Part shown: piece by piece, positions 9,754 to 34,843 of the stretch | How positions within the stretch are numbered: the stretch's first letter is position 1 | Layout of the letters: the number at the start of each line of letters is the position of its first letter | From: Phaeodactylum tricornutum CCAP 1055/1 | Lineage: Eukaryota > Bacillariophyta > Bacillariophyceae > Surirellales > Neidiaceae | Assembly (NCBI RefSeq): GCF_000150955.2 | Contig: NC_011685.1 | Coordinates: 124,001 to 188,000 of the forward strand | Reading direction: 5' to 3' | DNA: 64,000 nucleotides | Program-made: the position numbers and the translations under genes | Notes under the pieces: generated by a model | What the model saw: the letters and a program-made list of their open reading frames with translations, nothing else | What the model was told of the DNA's origin: nothing | The model's database searches: none

Positions 9754-11490
9754 ATGGAGGTCCCTAGTAGCGACAACGGACTTGCTACTTTCTCACAATT
9801 CCCCGTCACGAAGAAGAACGGCAGGCATTCTAGAAACCCAGCTACAGGTACCCCGTTAAGAGTTGATCCGGATGACGTATCCAATGACGCGACCTCTGCT
9901 CACTTCACAGCTCACTGTCATATACAATCAAAGACATTGAAAAGAGCCCTCGTCTTCAGTCGTAGGCGTACTTTAGATATCTTTTTCATTGGTTGCCTCG
10001 CTAACGCCTTCTTTTGCATCATAATTGTATTCGGCATACTGAGGCAGTCTGGTTTAACTGCTACGACGACGACCCTCGAAGACGAAAGAATAGGGGCCTT
10101 ACGCATGCCGTTTTTAATCAAGAACCAGACTTTGCAGAAAGAGTTGTACAATGCTTCGATGGCTGTAGATTCTGGGCCCCTTGCTGTTGATACCGTCGTA
10201 GAATCGTTTGTAATCAGTAGCGGCCGTACATCTGACCGAGCCTTCAACCAGATTATGCAGGTCACCGAAAGGTTCTCGGCCTGCATCCTGTTTATGGACG
10301 ACAATCCCCGTCTTGTGGAGTGGCTAGCCTACCATTTCTTTGCCTTAAACTTGCGCGAAGTTGTCGTGGCCGTCGATCCCCGAAGCAAGTCGAGTCCGTG
10401 GCAGTCTCTAGAACGCTGGACGCCGTACATGAATATCACTGTCTGGAACGACACCGACTTCGGCTTTGTGGTTGACCAATATATTACGGTCAACGGAACT
10501 CGCAAGCAAAAAATTGATGTACATCGTGGGAGACAAAAATTCTTTTACGGAAAATGTATAAAGTATCTACAAGGACGAAATCGGACATGGACCGCATTCC
10601 ACGACATCGATGAGTATATCACTGTTGACGAGCGGGTCGTTTTCGATGCCAAAGAGCGTAGTTCCAAGCCTGGAAGCGTCTTGCAGATGCTTCAAGAGGT
10701 GAAGAGCATGAAACCTGTTCCTGACGGTTGGACCGAGAGCTGTGTCCCCGTCCCACGGTGTCGTTTCTCAGCTGTGGAAAGCCAACCAGAAGAGGTAAGC
10801 CTGGAGGTCCCTCCTCTTATTGATGCAAAACAGCTCGAAACTCTACGCTGGAGGTATCGCTCTTTAAAAGGTCGAGATGGTCAGCCAAAATCTATTGTTG
10901 ATATTTCCGAAGTCACGCTGCACAGAAATACTAAGTTCGGCCCTCATGCAGTTATCCTTGGAATTTGTCCCCCGCATCTTTTTGATCGCAGTTTTTTAGT
11001 GATAAATCACTACTTGGGCGACTGGGATATGTAGTAAGTGTCTGTGTTGGTACAATAATGATTCAAAGTTTGTTTGTGGAGCGTGTACTCTTTCTACTCC
11101 CGCAACCTTGTAAAATCTTGCGTTCTAACAGTACGTCTTGTTTACCATGAAAGTTCGTTTCGCGATGATTGTCGCATAGGCAGCATGAAAAACAGAGAGG
11201 CTTGGGAATTCCGATCCAGCGAGAGTGAAGGCGGTACAACCGACCAGATCCGACCTTGGATTGGTGGGTTTGTAGCAGCCATGGGCGAAGAACGCGCGTT
11301 GCAGTTGTTGAAAGATGTTGGACTGCCAAAGAATTACACGAACCCTTACAACAAAACGGAATGGAGGATTGAACAAAGCACGTTGGATGCCTTGTTGAAA
11401 AAGCGCCCGAGAAGGGCTACGAACTACGTCAAGTTTCTTGAGCAGCGGATTAGGCAATCCAATATAAATCATTCGACTGATTATAATTAG
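9754..11490 (+). CDS. Type II membrane glycosyltransferase, GT92 (DUF23)-like
   Basis: Two exons, 9754..11033 and 11154..11490, with a 120-bp GT-AG intron; splicing gives DWDMYSFRDD and 538 residues. A basic cytosolic stretch is followed by one signal anchor at about residues 74-97, so a Golgi/ER lumenal catalytic domain is expected. That domain opens with ACILFMDDNPRLVEWLAYHF, typical of GT92 entry strands. It carries FHDIDEYI near residue 283, a DxD-type metal/nucleotide-sugar motif. Family members transfer galactose or other sugars onto glycans; donor and acceptor here are unknown. The frame opens at a TTG before the first ATG. A decayed paralogue with the same intron position lies 15 kb downstream (25347-26857). 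Confidence 0.75.
11034..11153 (+). other. Intron of the GT92-like gene
   Basis: A 120-bp intron with donor GTAAGT and acceptor ending AAAG. It splits a Tyr codon. The degenerate paralogue at 26.4 kb has an intron at the same codon and phase, which supports the call. Confidence 0.75.
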
Positions 11491-25346: not shown

Positions 25347-26857
25347 ATGAAAAAAGCTCCGGGTCCATGCTGTCGGCGTCAATCGAATACGACTATTATT
25401 GCACTCCTTGCAGTCATCCCTTTGTGCAGCATCAACGTATTCAGCAATTTGTGGCAGTCCATTTTCGCCGCTACGGAAAATTCCAGCAAAGGGGATGGAG
25501 AAGCCTTTCACATGCTTCACTGGACACAAAATCGGACCAATCGGGAGGAGTTGCATAGAGTTTCGTTGGCTACGCTGCCTACGACCGCGACTGCCGATGC
25601 TATCGGGAGTATCTCCCGCCTTGGCAGCACCAGCGAGTCTGTCGAAAACTCCGACGGAACTTTCAACCAAATTGTGGAGCTCCCTATCGACGAAACGTTC
25701 TCGGCCTGCATCCTGTTTATGGACGACAATCCCCGTCTAGTGGAGTGGTTGGTCTATCATTTCTTTGCCTTGAACTTGCGCGAAGTTGTCGTGGCCGTCG
25801 ATTGACGAAGCAAATCGAGTCCTTGGCCATCTCTGAAGCGCTGGACGCCGTACATGAATATCACCGTCTGAAACGACAACGACTACCATTTTGCATCCGA
25901 CGAACAGATTGCTCTCAATGGCACGTTAGTCCAAAAAAGAAATGTGCACCTTTCTAGGCAGAAGCTCTTTCATGGAGAATTTATAAAGTACCTGCAAGGA
26001 CGAAAGAGGACATGGACCGCATTCCATGACATCGACGAGTATATTTCTGTTGACGAACGAGTCGTTTCCAATGCCAAAGAGCGTAGCTCCACGCCAGGAA
26101 GCGTAATGCGTACGAATCCCATTCCCGACGGCTGGAACGAAAGCTGTGCTCCAGTACCAAGGTGTCGATTTTCAGCTGTGGAAAGCCACCCAGAAGAGGT
26201 GAGCGTGGGGGTCCCTTCTATAATCGGTGCAAACCAGCTCGAAACGCTTCGCTGGATGTATCGTTCACAGAAAGGTCGTGACGGTCTACCCAAGTCGATA
26301 ATTGATATTTCCCAGGTCCCCTTGCACAAAGGTACTAATTTGGCATTCATAGAGTTGTCAAAGGAATTTGTCCCAGGCAGAACTTTGAGCGCAGCTTTTT
26401 GGTGATAAATCACTACCTGGGTGACTGGAACGTGTAGTACGTGTTGTTGTTGTTGTTGTTTTCGATGAGAGTCCTTGACATAAGGGTTACTGCTTTTTCG
26501 AAATTTGTGCCCACGCTGTTCCTTTCTGACCACTTCTTAGTCGTATTGCTTTTCCATTGCAGTTCCTTTCGAGATGATAGCCGAAAGGGAGGCGAGAAAA
26601 GTAGGCAAGTGTGGGAATTCCGAACCAACGAGACCGAGGGTGGCTCGGCTGATCAGATCCGACCATGGATTGGCGGCTTTGTTGCTGCCATGGGCGAAGA
26701 ACGTGCTTTCCTTTTGTTGAAGGACGCCGGGTTGCCACAGAACTTCAAAGTTTTCAACAAAAATGAATGGAGAGTCAAAAAGTCTGCTGTTCACTCTTAT
26801 TTGAAAAATGGGCTTGATCCACAGCTCATAGATTTTCTAGATCAGCACGCTGGTTAG
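25347..26857 (+). pseudogene. Decayed paralogue of the GT92-like glycosyltransferase
   Basis: A copy of the gene at 9754-11490, recognisable from the signal anchor to the C-terminus. It keeps ACILFMDDNPRLVEWLVYHF, FHDIDEYI and, after an intron at the same place (donor GTACGT after GACTGGAACGTGTA, acceptor TTGCAG before 26564), an intact second exon. Exon 1 has two in-frame TGA codons, at 25803-25805 (Pro in the other copy) and 25869-25871 (Trp in the other copy), and a frame shift near 26340-26400. It also lacks the LQMLQEVKSMK segment. The N-terminus differs but still encodes a signal anchor, so the copies diverged before decay. Use of TGA as selenocysteine is unlikely given the replaced residues. 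Confidence 0.82.
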
Positions 26858-29948: not shown

Positions 29949-32171
29949 TTAGACGCGCCGGCGTTTAGCTACAGGCTGACCGTCAAATTGATCATGACCG
30001 CCTTTTCGTTTCGATGACGCAAATCCGAGCAGTCTCCAAAAGTGTGACAACCAGCCATCTCTTTTCGCTTCGTCTATTGTCTCGAGGGAGTCCACCTTCA
30101 GCACTTGTTCGAGGCTCATAATTCGTTCTTTCGCAAATCGAAGACGTAGTGCTCCCAAGATGAGCTTGCCATGGTCCAGGATAGTGGCAGCAGGGTCCAA
30201 TGCCGTGTCACTGACTTCTGGACGGAAGACGGCGGCAACCAGAAAGGACGTATCGTTTAGCCAAATTATCTCAAAATTCACCCGTCGATCCTGTGTATCG
30301 ATCAAACCCGACAGACAACGAATGATGTCACGAGTAGATACTGAGGGGTCTATATCAGACACGCGGAATGTCGATTCCACAAGCATTCCTCGACTCAGAG
30401 GGTCAGAAACTGGATCTTCCAAGTCCATGGTATACATACTCATTTGAAAGAGCTTGTTTCTACCATAAAGCAGTCGTGTATTCTCTGTGCCTTCGTTATC
30501 GATTGTCAAATGCGTCATATTCCCGACGCCATCTAGTGCTACTGTTTCGTCTTGCAATGTGCTTTTTATCTGCTCACAAAGCCCAATGTAGATTGCACCC
30601 GTCATGTACGCATCATAGGCGGCTTCATGTTCCTGATCATCGGTAGCGTCCCCTCTACCAGCGTCCGCGACAACTTCAATCCTGTCCTCTAATCCGTTGT
30701 TCTGTCGCACCACTTTCTCAAACAGAGCAGCCAGTGCCGAATTCTCATTGCTCCATGTACTGCATTCAGTAGTGACAGCCTTGGTGTCGTAAATAATTGG
30801 AAAGTAACGACTTATCAATCCCTTGCACTCCTTCAACGTATCAGGAAGGGTTTCGTGATGAAAATGGGTCAACAAGAAGCAAATATCCATGAATCCATTG
30901 TGTACCACTAATGGAATGTTCCGGCGACGACTGGATTTCGAACCCAAAGACAATGTGTCTTCCGCAAAGGGCACCAATGGTGAGGTAAAATCAACGGCGT
31001 CGACCGACGGTGCCAAGACCGCTGACGTCAAATCAAGATGTTCTCCACGGCACACGCGCGAAATAGCCTCGAAGACACGCCACATGCCAATTTTGTTCAC
31101 TACCACCTTTTCCCAATCTTCCCGCCGGAGTCGTTGCTTCCTCGTTTGGGATTCCTCCTCAGTTAAGCGTAACACGCGAATTTGGTTGTTGCCGGCACTT
31201 TCCAACACCAAATCGGGATATTCCGCTTCAATGCTTTCGTAGAGAGCACGACGCAAGAATGAGTTGCACGATGGCAGCAGGAATGCGGCTCCTTCCGGTG
31301 CTAGTTCTATGGGTGGACCTTCAACTTCGTTCAAAGCGGCATCTAGCCATTCACGCAAACTTGCCATGGCACGAGCTGAATAGTAATCGCAGAAAAGGAG
31401 AAGGATTCGTAGGTCAGATTGTCAATGTAGCAGAAACCAAGTAGGGAAATGACATTCATAAAGAGCATTACCAGCCACATGCTCATAGGTCGTACCGTGA
31501 AAATCAATGTCTTCCGATCGACGCAACTCGACACGTCTTCGAGTGCTATCCTGCAGATTCGCATGTCGTTCCTTATCTTCGGCTGCTCGTTCCCGAATCA
31601 GTTCCTTCTCGACGTAGGCATGTACCGTTTCGTAGGCCTTATCGTTGGTTTGGTACGTCACGCCCTGTTGAGTCCACAGATCCAGACTCATGTTGTGTTG
31701 CTGCAAAAAGGCGACGGCCCCGGGGTTGAGCACAACTTCCCGTGTCTCACCGGACCATCCGTCCTGCGCGGGGAAGACGTAAAAGTTGTACCTCCGGGCC
31801 TGCCATTCGTGTACCTCCCCCGGTTCACTCGTGGCGTGGAAGAGCACGACCCCGAGTTGAATGATGCTGTACCGTTCCGGCACGTACTTGAGCGTCGACG
31901 CGTACAGGGCCGACGGCGGTTGCTCCTTGGCCGGACGGGGCGTGCCCGGCACCGTGATACCCGTCATTTCTTCGTCAATGGCGATAAAGGCTGCCGTCGG
32001 CAAATGCTGCAACAAATCATTCGTTTGCTTGCGAATAGAAGAGAGAAATGGGGCGTCAGTGGATTGTGGAAAACGGGGTGGGGTAGAAAGATTAATGAAC
32101 AAGCTCACAGTCAGTGCCGCCGATCCATTTGTCCTCACCTCGATGAAATTTTCTTTCGTGACGTTCACCAT
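29949..32171 (-). CDS. PARN: Poly(A)-specific ribonuclease PARN (CAF1/DEDDh family)
   Basis: Three exons, 32171..32139 (11 codons), 32027..31472 and 31375..29949, join with GT-AG introns of 111 and 96 bp to give 671 residues. After splicing the start reads MVNVTKENFIEQTNDLLQHL, in register with animal PARN, and the catalytic pair falls at Asp29 and Glu31 (FIAIDEEMTG), nearly the same numbering as human PARN. The third acidic residue is in HNGFMDICFLLTHF, and the last His/Asp pair in HEAAYDAYMTGAIY. These DEDDh residues bind two metals and remove mRNA poly(A) tails 3' to 5'; PARN also trims snoRNA and other ncRNA 3' ends in the nucleus. The basic C-terminus (KRKGG, AKRRRV) looks like a nuclear localisation signal. 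Confidence 0.88.
31376..31471 (-). other. Second intron of PARN
   Basis: A 96-bp intron with donor GTAATG and acceptor ATTCAG, interrupting a split Ala codon (EHVAARAMASL). Confidence 0.65.
32028..32138 (-). other. First intron of PARN
   Basis: A 111-bp phase-0 intron with donor GTGAGG and acceptor CGCAAG. The sequence is open if read through, so an unspliced reading would insert 37 residues, but splicing aligns the N-terminus with the family. It contains one exact copy of the recurrent 12-mer at 32103-32114. Confidence 0.7.
32103..32114 (+). repeat. Recurrent 12-mer GCTCACAGTCAG, copy 1 (PARN intron 1)
   Basis: Exact match to 35937-35948 and 37805-37816. Here it is inside the first PARN intron. 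Confidence 0.8.
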
Positions 32172-33610: not shown

Positions 33611-34843
33611 TTAGATGCCATCGGGGAAGTAATACCCACTCTTGGCAACATATTCCGGAATGACAAAGGCAGCCGACAGCTGATCAATGACGTTGACACC
33701 AGAGGCGTTGGCTTGGAAAAGGAGTCCAAGTAGGCCAACCATGGCAAGACGGGCGTGCTTCACTTCCTGCAGCTGCTTCTCTTCGTATTCTTCTGGGGAG
33801 TAGTTGAGTCCGAGAGGGTTCCAGCGGCCGTCTCCTTGTCCCCAACGCTGAGAGTCACCGGGCTGGTAGTTGTTGCCTTGCTGGAAGATAATGTTGATGC
33901 GGCGGAATTCCAAGGCCGCCATAAAGGCAAAGATCTGGAAAATCGAGGCGCTGGGGGCGGCTCCGAGGGCTTCCAAGGGGTTGGTGTTGGAAAAGGCGTC
34001 GGCGCCGGTCCAGGCGTTGCCTTCAAAGGTTCCGAAACCGGGGGCGATGAATCCCACGACGGCGATCATGCAGATACGTCCATGCATGAGTTCGGCCTCG
34101 CGGTACCAGGTGAGACCGTCGATGCTCACTTCATTGTTGAAGATTCCGTTGAAGTACGGAGCAGCCACGGTGTCGGCCTTGGTAGAAAGGAAGCAGGGAT
34201 CAAAGCCCACGTCACCCACCAGGGATCCGTCCAAAAGTGCCGGGGCTCCTTCATACGGAATGGCAATGGAAGGAATGGTACCACCACCCTGAAACGCATG
34301 TCAGAAAAAGAATCACAAGCGCAAAAACATGATCGTGAGTGTCTAGTTGCAAAGGGTAGGGGCCACGGATTGCCAGACTGGATTGTCTCAACGTACCGAA
34401 GCGGTGACTCGCTTGGCGGGAGCGGTAGCCTTCTTTGCGGGGGCTTTCGCAGCAGGGGCCTTCTTCACCACGGCTTTGACGGCCTTCTTGACGGGAGCGG
34501 GGGCCTTCTTGACAGCCTTGACTGCGGCTTTCTTCACCGGTGCCGCCTTCTTGACCACAGCCTTCTTGACGGGAGCGGCCTTTTTCTCCACAACCTTTTT
34601 GGCTTCCGCCGCGGGGTCCTTCTTCATGAAAGGATTGACAAAGGCTTTCTTGGGTGCCGCTACCTTTTTAGTTGCGGCAGCAGCCTTGGAAACCGCGGCC
34701 TTGGCGGGCTTGACGGCCTTGGTAGCCGCCGGCTTGGCTGCCGCTTTTTTGGGAGCGGGCTTCTTACCGACGGCGAACGTCATACTGGGAGCCGTAAAGG
34801 CACTGGCGGTAGCCGCAAGGGTAGTCAAGACAGCAATCTTCAT
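33611..34843 (-). CDS. Fucoxanthin-chlorophyll a/c light-harvesting protein with Lys/Ala-rich spacer
   Basis: Two exons, 34843..34397 and 34288..33611, joined over a 108-bp GT-AG intron at TASGGGTIPS; 374 residues. The first 16 residues are a signal peptide ending ATASAFTAPS, the classic diatom ASAF-type plastid import motif. Residues about 26-149 are almost only Lys, Ala, Pro and Val (KKAAPVKKAV-type units), broken once by AFVNPFMKKDP. The chlorophyll-binding domain follows: helix 1 WYREAELMHGRICMIAVVG and helix 3 LQEVKHARLAMVGLLGLLF, with the Glu/His/Arg that ligate chlorophyll and pair the helices. FCPs harvest light for the photosystems in the thylakoid. A normal FCP is ~200 residues, so the spacer is exceptional. 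The subfamily (Lhcr-like suggested by helix 3) is uncertain. Confidence 0.88.
34289..34396 (-). other. Intron of the light-harvesting gene
   Basis: A 108-bp phase-0 intron, donor GTACGT and acceptor TTTCAG, placed exactly at the border between the Lys/Ala-rich spacer exon and the LHC-domain exon. Confidence 0.8.

Follow-up and report, generated by a model that had tools for sequence, protein, structure and literature searches.

The closest described relatives of the gene discussed here are the subunits that bridge photosystem II and its outer antennas in diatoms: FCP-D of C. gracilis, also named Fcpb5 or Lhcr17, and Lhca2 of T. pseudonana (PMC8976053, PMC10599620). This linker subunit sits on the CP43 side of photosystem II and is described as analogous to CP29 (PMC10599620, PMC10710467, PMC8331139). 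According to the report on Lhca2, the long C-terminal part of the linker docks to photosystem II, the long N terminus of Lhca2 touches Lhcf11 at the stromal surface, and linkers of different species vary in their N-terminal loops, which may be suited to different antennas (PMC10599620). Diatom photosystem II is reported to lie mainly in appressed membranes (PMC8331139), and contacts of plant LHCII are held to contribute to stacking (PMC11449116). A search of the open-access literature found, among the papers listed, none on the N-terminal extension described here. To our knowledge, neither the attachment of antennas to photosystem II nor membrane cohesion in diatoms is settled.

The gene that we describe encodes a predicted linker antenna with a long, strongly positive spacer between its plastid-import motif and its chlorophyll-binding (LHC) domain, which is unusual for this protein. 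It lies on the minus strand of the window, by which we mean the whole 64,000-nucleotide stretch that was analysed (G000:C17:124001-188000); the genome searched comprises 27.45 Mb on 88 contigs. A splice proposed from the sequence joins two exons (34843-33611) into one frame of 374 residues. The features are collected in Table 1.

Table 1. Positions of the gene's features in the window, with the basis of each assignment
Feature	Position	Strand	Basis or remark
Exon 1 (residues 1-149), encoding the signal peptide, the ASAF import motif and the K/A/P/V spacer	34397..34843	-	447 nt, 149 codons
Predicted intron, 108 nt, GTACGT...TTTCAG	34289..34396	-	sequence only
Exon 2 (residues 150-374), encoding the whole LHC domain and its long C-terminal part, TAA stop	33611..34288	-	
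Putative plastid-import motif ASAF, residues 13-16	34796..34807	-	sequence; meaning of the motif as described in PMC3774753
Block common to C. gracilis Fcpb5, TAPSMTFAVGKKPAPKKA, residues 17-34	34742..34795	-	sequence alignment
K/A/P/V spacer, residues 26-149, net charge +35	34397..34768	-	sequence composition
Non-basic island FVNPFMKKDPAAEAKKVVE, residues 68-86, with the spacer's only three acidic residues	34586..34642	-	
Region of APVKKA / xVKKA units, residues 90-129	34457..34576	-	

The sequence-only reading had proposed a single gene whose intron falls exactly at the border between spacer and domain. Its coordinates, splice and intron position all proved exact, and the signal and plastid-import motif, the long polycationic spacer and the LHC domain are all present in one predicted product. 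It had also given the spacer an exon of its own, which is right in that the spacer ends where exon 1 ends and wrong in that the same exon encodes the signal peptide and the import motif as well. An alternative in-frame donor at 34408 (GTCACC) would yield a product of 370 aa. We reject the idea that two unrelated genes were joined in error, since both ends occur together in the single chain of Fcpb5 and exon 2 lacks its own start. The case that the reading itself had named as refuting, a start codon just 5' of the LHC domain, is ruled out: in frame, just four sense codons, none of them ATG, lie between a TGA and exon 2, and the first listed ATG of the exon 2 frame, at 34087, lies deep within the domain. 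We infer both the splice and the import of the product into the plastid from the sequence. An Rfam search of the 64-kb window gave no match.

Some other frames of the window were observed along the way. Two neighbours on the minus strand, 29949-31367 and 31422-32171, match the second and the first half, respectively, of the CAF1 ribonuclease profile and are probably one gene with an intron. On the plus strand, the open frames 9754-11034 and 25347-25805 are related and lie about 14-15 kb apart; 33 of their last 34 aligned residues are identical, with one change (SACILFMDDNPRLVEWL.YHFFALNLREVVVAVD), and the frame 9754-11034 has no Pfam match.

The LHC domain matches the PF00504 profile over residues 165-342 with 125.1 bits (Pfam cut-off 22.3). 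For the whole protein, the best match in the PDB is C. gracilis Fcpb5/FCP-D (E 9e-86), followed by C. meneghiniana FCPII-I and a T. pseudonana chain labelled ‘lhca clade’ at 213-214 bits; past the first five chains the score drops from 213 to 117 bits, and the match found there is a 1048-residue multi-domain chain. The relation is reciprocal: when Fcpb5 is used to search the genome, the window gene scores 279.6 bits and the second locus 51.6. When the domain of the window gene is used instead, the nearest other locus reaches 52.7 bits. A global alignment with Fcpb5 gives 132 identities in the 218 positions of the domain (61%), and it continues without gaps to the very end of the long C-terminal part (extended helix D and C-terminal loop, as far as sequence can assign them). 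Fcpb5 is reported to bind chlorophyll through 7 side-chain ligands (PMC8976053), and all 7 are identical in the window gene. Residues S156 and Q157 of Fcpb5 are not kept, and correspond to G258 and A259; where the structure paper takes up these two residues, it uses them to set Fcpb5 apart from Fcpb1 for density assignment and does not give them as a mark of the subfamily (PMC8976053). By these comparisons, the window gene appears to be the genome's single close match to FCP-D/Fcpb5/Lhcr17 of C. gracilis and Lhca2 of T. pseudonana.

Fold prediction was applied to each exon. The model of exon 2, built with 12 paralogs, has a mean pLDDT of 56; at residues 206-225 it falls below 50, too low for the model to strengthen the sequence-based assignment of the C-terminal part. 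Its first five matches in Foldseek are FCP-D/Lhca2 chains, and because the rmsd values are 11-23 A, these matches only echo the sequence result. The model of exon 1 alone, with helices at residues 44-58, 77-113 and 116-128, has a mean pLDDT of 59 and is too weak for use.

The 124 residues of the spacer include 41 A, 37 K, 17 V and 14 P, with 15 others, and K, A, P and V together make up 88%. Its acidic residues, D76, E80 and E86, all follow just after the FVNPFM island. When the 113 stop-free stretches of at least 120 aa in the six frames of the window are compared, K+A+P comes to 76% in the best 120 residues of the spacer and to 37.5% in the runner-up. The repeated units are more regular than the composition predicts. 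In 5000 shuffles that preserve composition, APVKKA averages 0.02 occurrences and never reaches the three of the spacer; VKKA occurs six times versus 0.5 expected from shuffles. Tandem Repeats Finder reports three short imperfect arrays, with 2.1-3.1 copies and 59-78% matches. Codons are identical in 40 of 90 comparisons among the repeated pentapeptides, with a shuffle mean of 40.2, a test with few copies and low power. Because this sharing is at the level of chance, recent DNA slippage is unlikely, and an expansion of the spacer by that route is unsupported.

The low complexity of the spacer could also mean that it is kept but functionless, a product of drift that is tolerated as general flexibility. 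The choice of alanine codons agrees with this, since the bias is weaker in the spacer than in the domain (GCC in 15 of 41 versus 21 of 26, p = 0.0005), as under weaker selection. The regularity of the units points the other way: together with their chance-like codons, it fits the upkeep of a pattern in the protein better than recent slippage, although the copies are few and the argument is weak. We judge functionless drift to be distinctly unlikely.

The comparison with histone H1, which the sequence-only reading had drawn, holds for composition. Like the C-terminal tail of a histone H1 in the same genome (L044), the spacer is rich in Lys, Ala and Pro and strongly basic: K 30%, A 33%, P 11% and a charge of +35 over 124 residues, versus K 38%, A 30%, P 13% and +40 over 110 residues in the tail. 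The likeness goes no further. Histone H1 has a winged helix, and the linker histone domain PF00538 finds no match in the product at E up to 1. The tail has TAPKK units and four [S/T](A/P)PKK motifs, whereas the spacer has PVKKA units and none of these motifs; Thr is 3% in the spacer versus 14% in the tail, and Val 14% versus 2%. Exon shuffling from histone H1 was rejected on the grounds of the missing domain match and the different tail motifs. The same differences bear on the possibility that the spacer is a histone-like segment that binds nucleic acid, serving as an anchor between plastid DNA and the thylakoid or, if the intron is kept, as a free basic plastid protein. Such a protein could be made, in that the unspliced frame stops two codons inside the intron and encodes 151 aa, and the composition would suit it; without the linker-histone domain and motifs, and with Thr and Val so different, we regard this reading as very improbable.

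To place the spacer among other antenna genes, 31 LHC loci out of the 50 PF00504 matches in the genome were surveyed. Eighteen of the 31 have an import motif that shares the reading frame of the domain, and there the length from cleavage site to domain is 17-23 residues (13 loci) or 39-67 residues (5 loci). The other 13 are the window gene, one locus (L001) with an 11-residue K/A/P stretch in an upstream exon, and 11 loci with short candidate starts upstream. No second gene with a long K/A/P/V spacer was found among the 31 loci, the upstream exon having been guessed from motifs in those 11. The spacer used as a query against the genome retrieved its own locus alone, among the matches listed. 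Two LHC genes on different contigs (L021, G000:C15:812080, and L022, G000:C24:407308) are identical at 797 of 801 bases over the compared stretch; the pair reflects either a recent duplication or a copy made in assembly.

The genome was also scanned for coding patterns, each with a reversed control; these scans served for gene finding and not as statistics. KKAAxKK (8 versus 2) is the sole scan of the four above the control (NPFMKK occurs once versus 0), and neither KKAxxKKA (4 versus 5) nor APxKKAxxK (5 versus 5) shows an excess. Scans for orthologs gave 7 pattern matches in viral contigs and 53 in bacterial/archaeal contigs, with no relative among them. An open frame of 640 aa elsewhere in the genome (L062, G000:C1:213534, plus) has recurring SFF / SLFG motifs between P/A/K-rich stretches.

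From the position of the intron, the sequence-only reading had suggested that the spacer arose by exon addition, which the relatives do not bear out. The precursor of C. gracilis Fcpb5 starts with MKLALAALLATSAAAFQAPTMTFSLGKKAAAKKAVKAPAPSG, with 20 of its first 34 residues identical to the window gene, and this common start is followed by a short K/A/P stretch, GKKAAAKKAVKAPAP. The pattern scans led to a comparable arrangement within the genome, in an LHC gene on contig C5 (L056/L001, G000:C5, about 76,676-77,388, plus) where a GTACGT intron separates MKCIAAIALLATTASAFNAFGAAKKAAPKKP from the LHC domain. Its first exon, of the form signal-ASAF-GAAKKAAPKKP, ends in a K/A/P stretch of 11 residues directly before the intron and repeats the layout of the window gene on a small scale; the solved relatives of this gene include Lhcx/LI818-type chains, not as the best ones. 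Another LHC gene (L019) has FAAKKGAKKRAAVV at the position of the spacer. Because Fcpb5 and the C5 gene already have a short K/A/P stretch at this place, the spacer looks expanded where it stands, and it is probably best read as an in-place expansion of a pre-existing basic patch in the linker antenna. The Fcpb5 precursor also has targeting sequence, basic patch and LHC domain in this order, so the arrangement probably predates the long spacer.

Whether such a spacer stays on the protein after import can be considered against a reference set from T. pseudonana. The 63 transit peptides derived there from measured N termini are 12-42 residues long, contain 18% Ser and 14% Thr and almost no acidic residues, and strongly favour Leu at -2 (PMC3774753). 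By comparison, the segment from F16 to S149 has 134 residues, 6.7% S+T, three acidic residues and no Leu, and does not pass for a transit peptide by this set. An ordinary transit peptide would be shorter, richer in Ser/Thr and less acidic in its middle part, and the spacer therefore probably stays in part on the protein, as an arm on the stromal side. If 42 residues counted from F16 were removed as a transit peptide, the cut would fall after residue 57 and the remaining 92 spacer residues would have a charge of +26. Cleavage near M73 would leave 76 spacer residues with a charge of +22, in a protein of 31.9 kDa.

Alternatively, the whole spacer may be an oversized transit peptide, which aids import and is then cleaved away in the stroma, giving an ordinary FCP-D of about 24 kDa. 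The spacer comes directly after the import motif and, like transit peptides, is basic. In the structure models from C. gracilis the chain begins around precursor residue 42-45, past the short K/A/P stretch, which is therefore either cleaved or disordered there. Furthermore, the domain alone has a mass of 24.2 kDa, next to the 24.8 kDa given for Tp-Lhca2 (PMC10599620). What makes removal of the whole spacer somewhat unlikely, in our estimate, is the set of departures just listed: 134 residues against 12-42, S+T of 6.7% against 32%, the three acidic residues and the lack of a Leu before the domain.

A further protein found with the KKAxxKKA scan is relevant to partial retention. This gene, L052 (G000:C11:801434, minus), encodes an ASAF motif and a K/A-rich tail at the C terminus, FGKKAAAKKTVVAKKAAPKKAAVAAKKTVAAKKPKYFY; it has no Pfam match, and the single PDB match, to a nucleolar protein, is weak (E 0.061). 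A tail at the C terminus cannot be a transit peptide; if L052 is indeed imported, mature plastid proteins can therefore bear K/A tails.

The reading that we prefer, with a probability of roughly one half, is that the gene encodes a photosystem II linker antenna of the CP43 side in which the basic patch expanded in place, and that the resulting arm is partly kept and acts as an electrostatic tether. In C. gracilis the patch has about 15 residues, and in the window gene it would have grown from such a length to 124. Import would be followed by removal of a short transit peptide, and much of the spacer would stay as a flexible arm on the stromal side, adding a charge of about +22 to +35 to an otherwise acidic protein. 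The arm would then most likely attach electrostatically to acidic partners: adjacent antennas, the head groups of lipids or, in appressed thylakoids, the membrane opposite. The LHC part has a pI of 4.4 and a charge of -12. Because the arm at +35 is set against this acidic part, and because photosystem II lies mainly in appressed membranes, electrostatic tethering would be the most economical function for an arm that is kept; that the arm does tether or stack membranes is speculative. In a bolder version, which we put forward tentatively and consider rather unlikely, a retained polycationic arm of about 75-124 residues would glue membranes or complexes together in appressed thylakoids, and the K/A tail, used again as the C terminus of a second plastid protein, would be a general charged-tail device of diatom plastids. 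A natural linker with a large charged arm would make the role of the N-terminal loop directly testable, as the arm could be removed and the antenna kept.

Among known systems, plant CP29 (Lhcb4) is similar in role, as a bridge between outer antenna and photosystem II core by the analogy that the structural papers draw (PMC10599620), but it is distant in sequence (66 bits for 3jcu_R) and belongs to another subfamily. T. pseudonana Lhca2 (8iwh chain 3) and C. meneghiniana FCPII-I (8j5k) are the next best solved relatives and hold the linker position in photosystem II (PMC10599620, PMC10710467); they were compared over the modelled part alone, which does not include the N terminus of the precursor. 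The nearest is monomer m1 of the C. gracilis photosystem II-FCPII complex (6jlu, 7vd5, 7vd6), that is, FCP-D = Fcpb5 = Lhcr17. It shares with the window gene 61% identity over the domain, the 7 side-chain chlorophyll ligands, the C-terminal end and the N-terminal block followed by K/A/P residues, and it differs in having S156/Q157 in place of G/A and about 15 such K/A/P residues where the window gene has 124.
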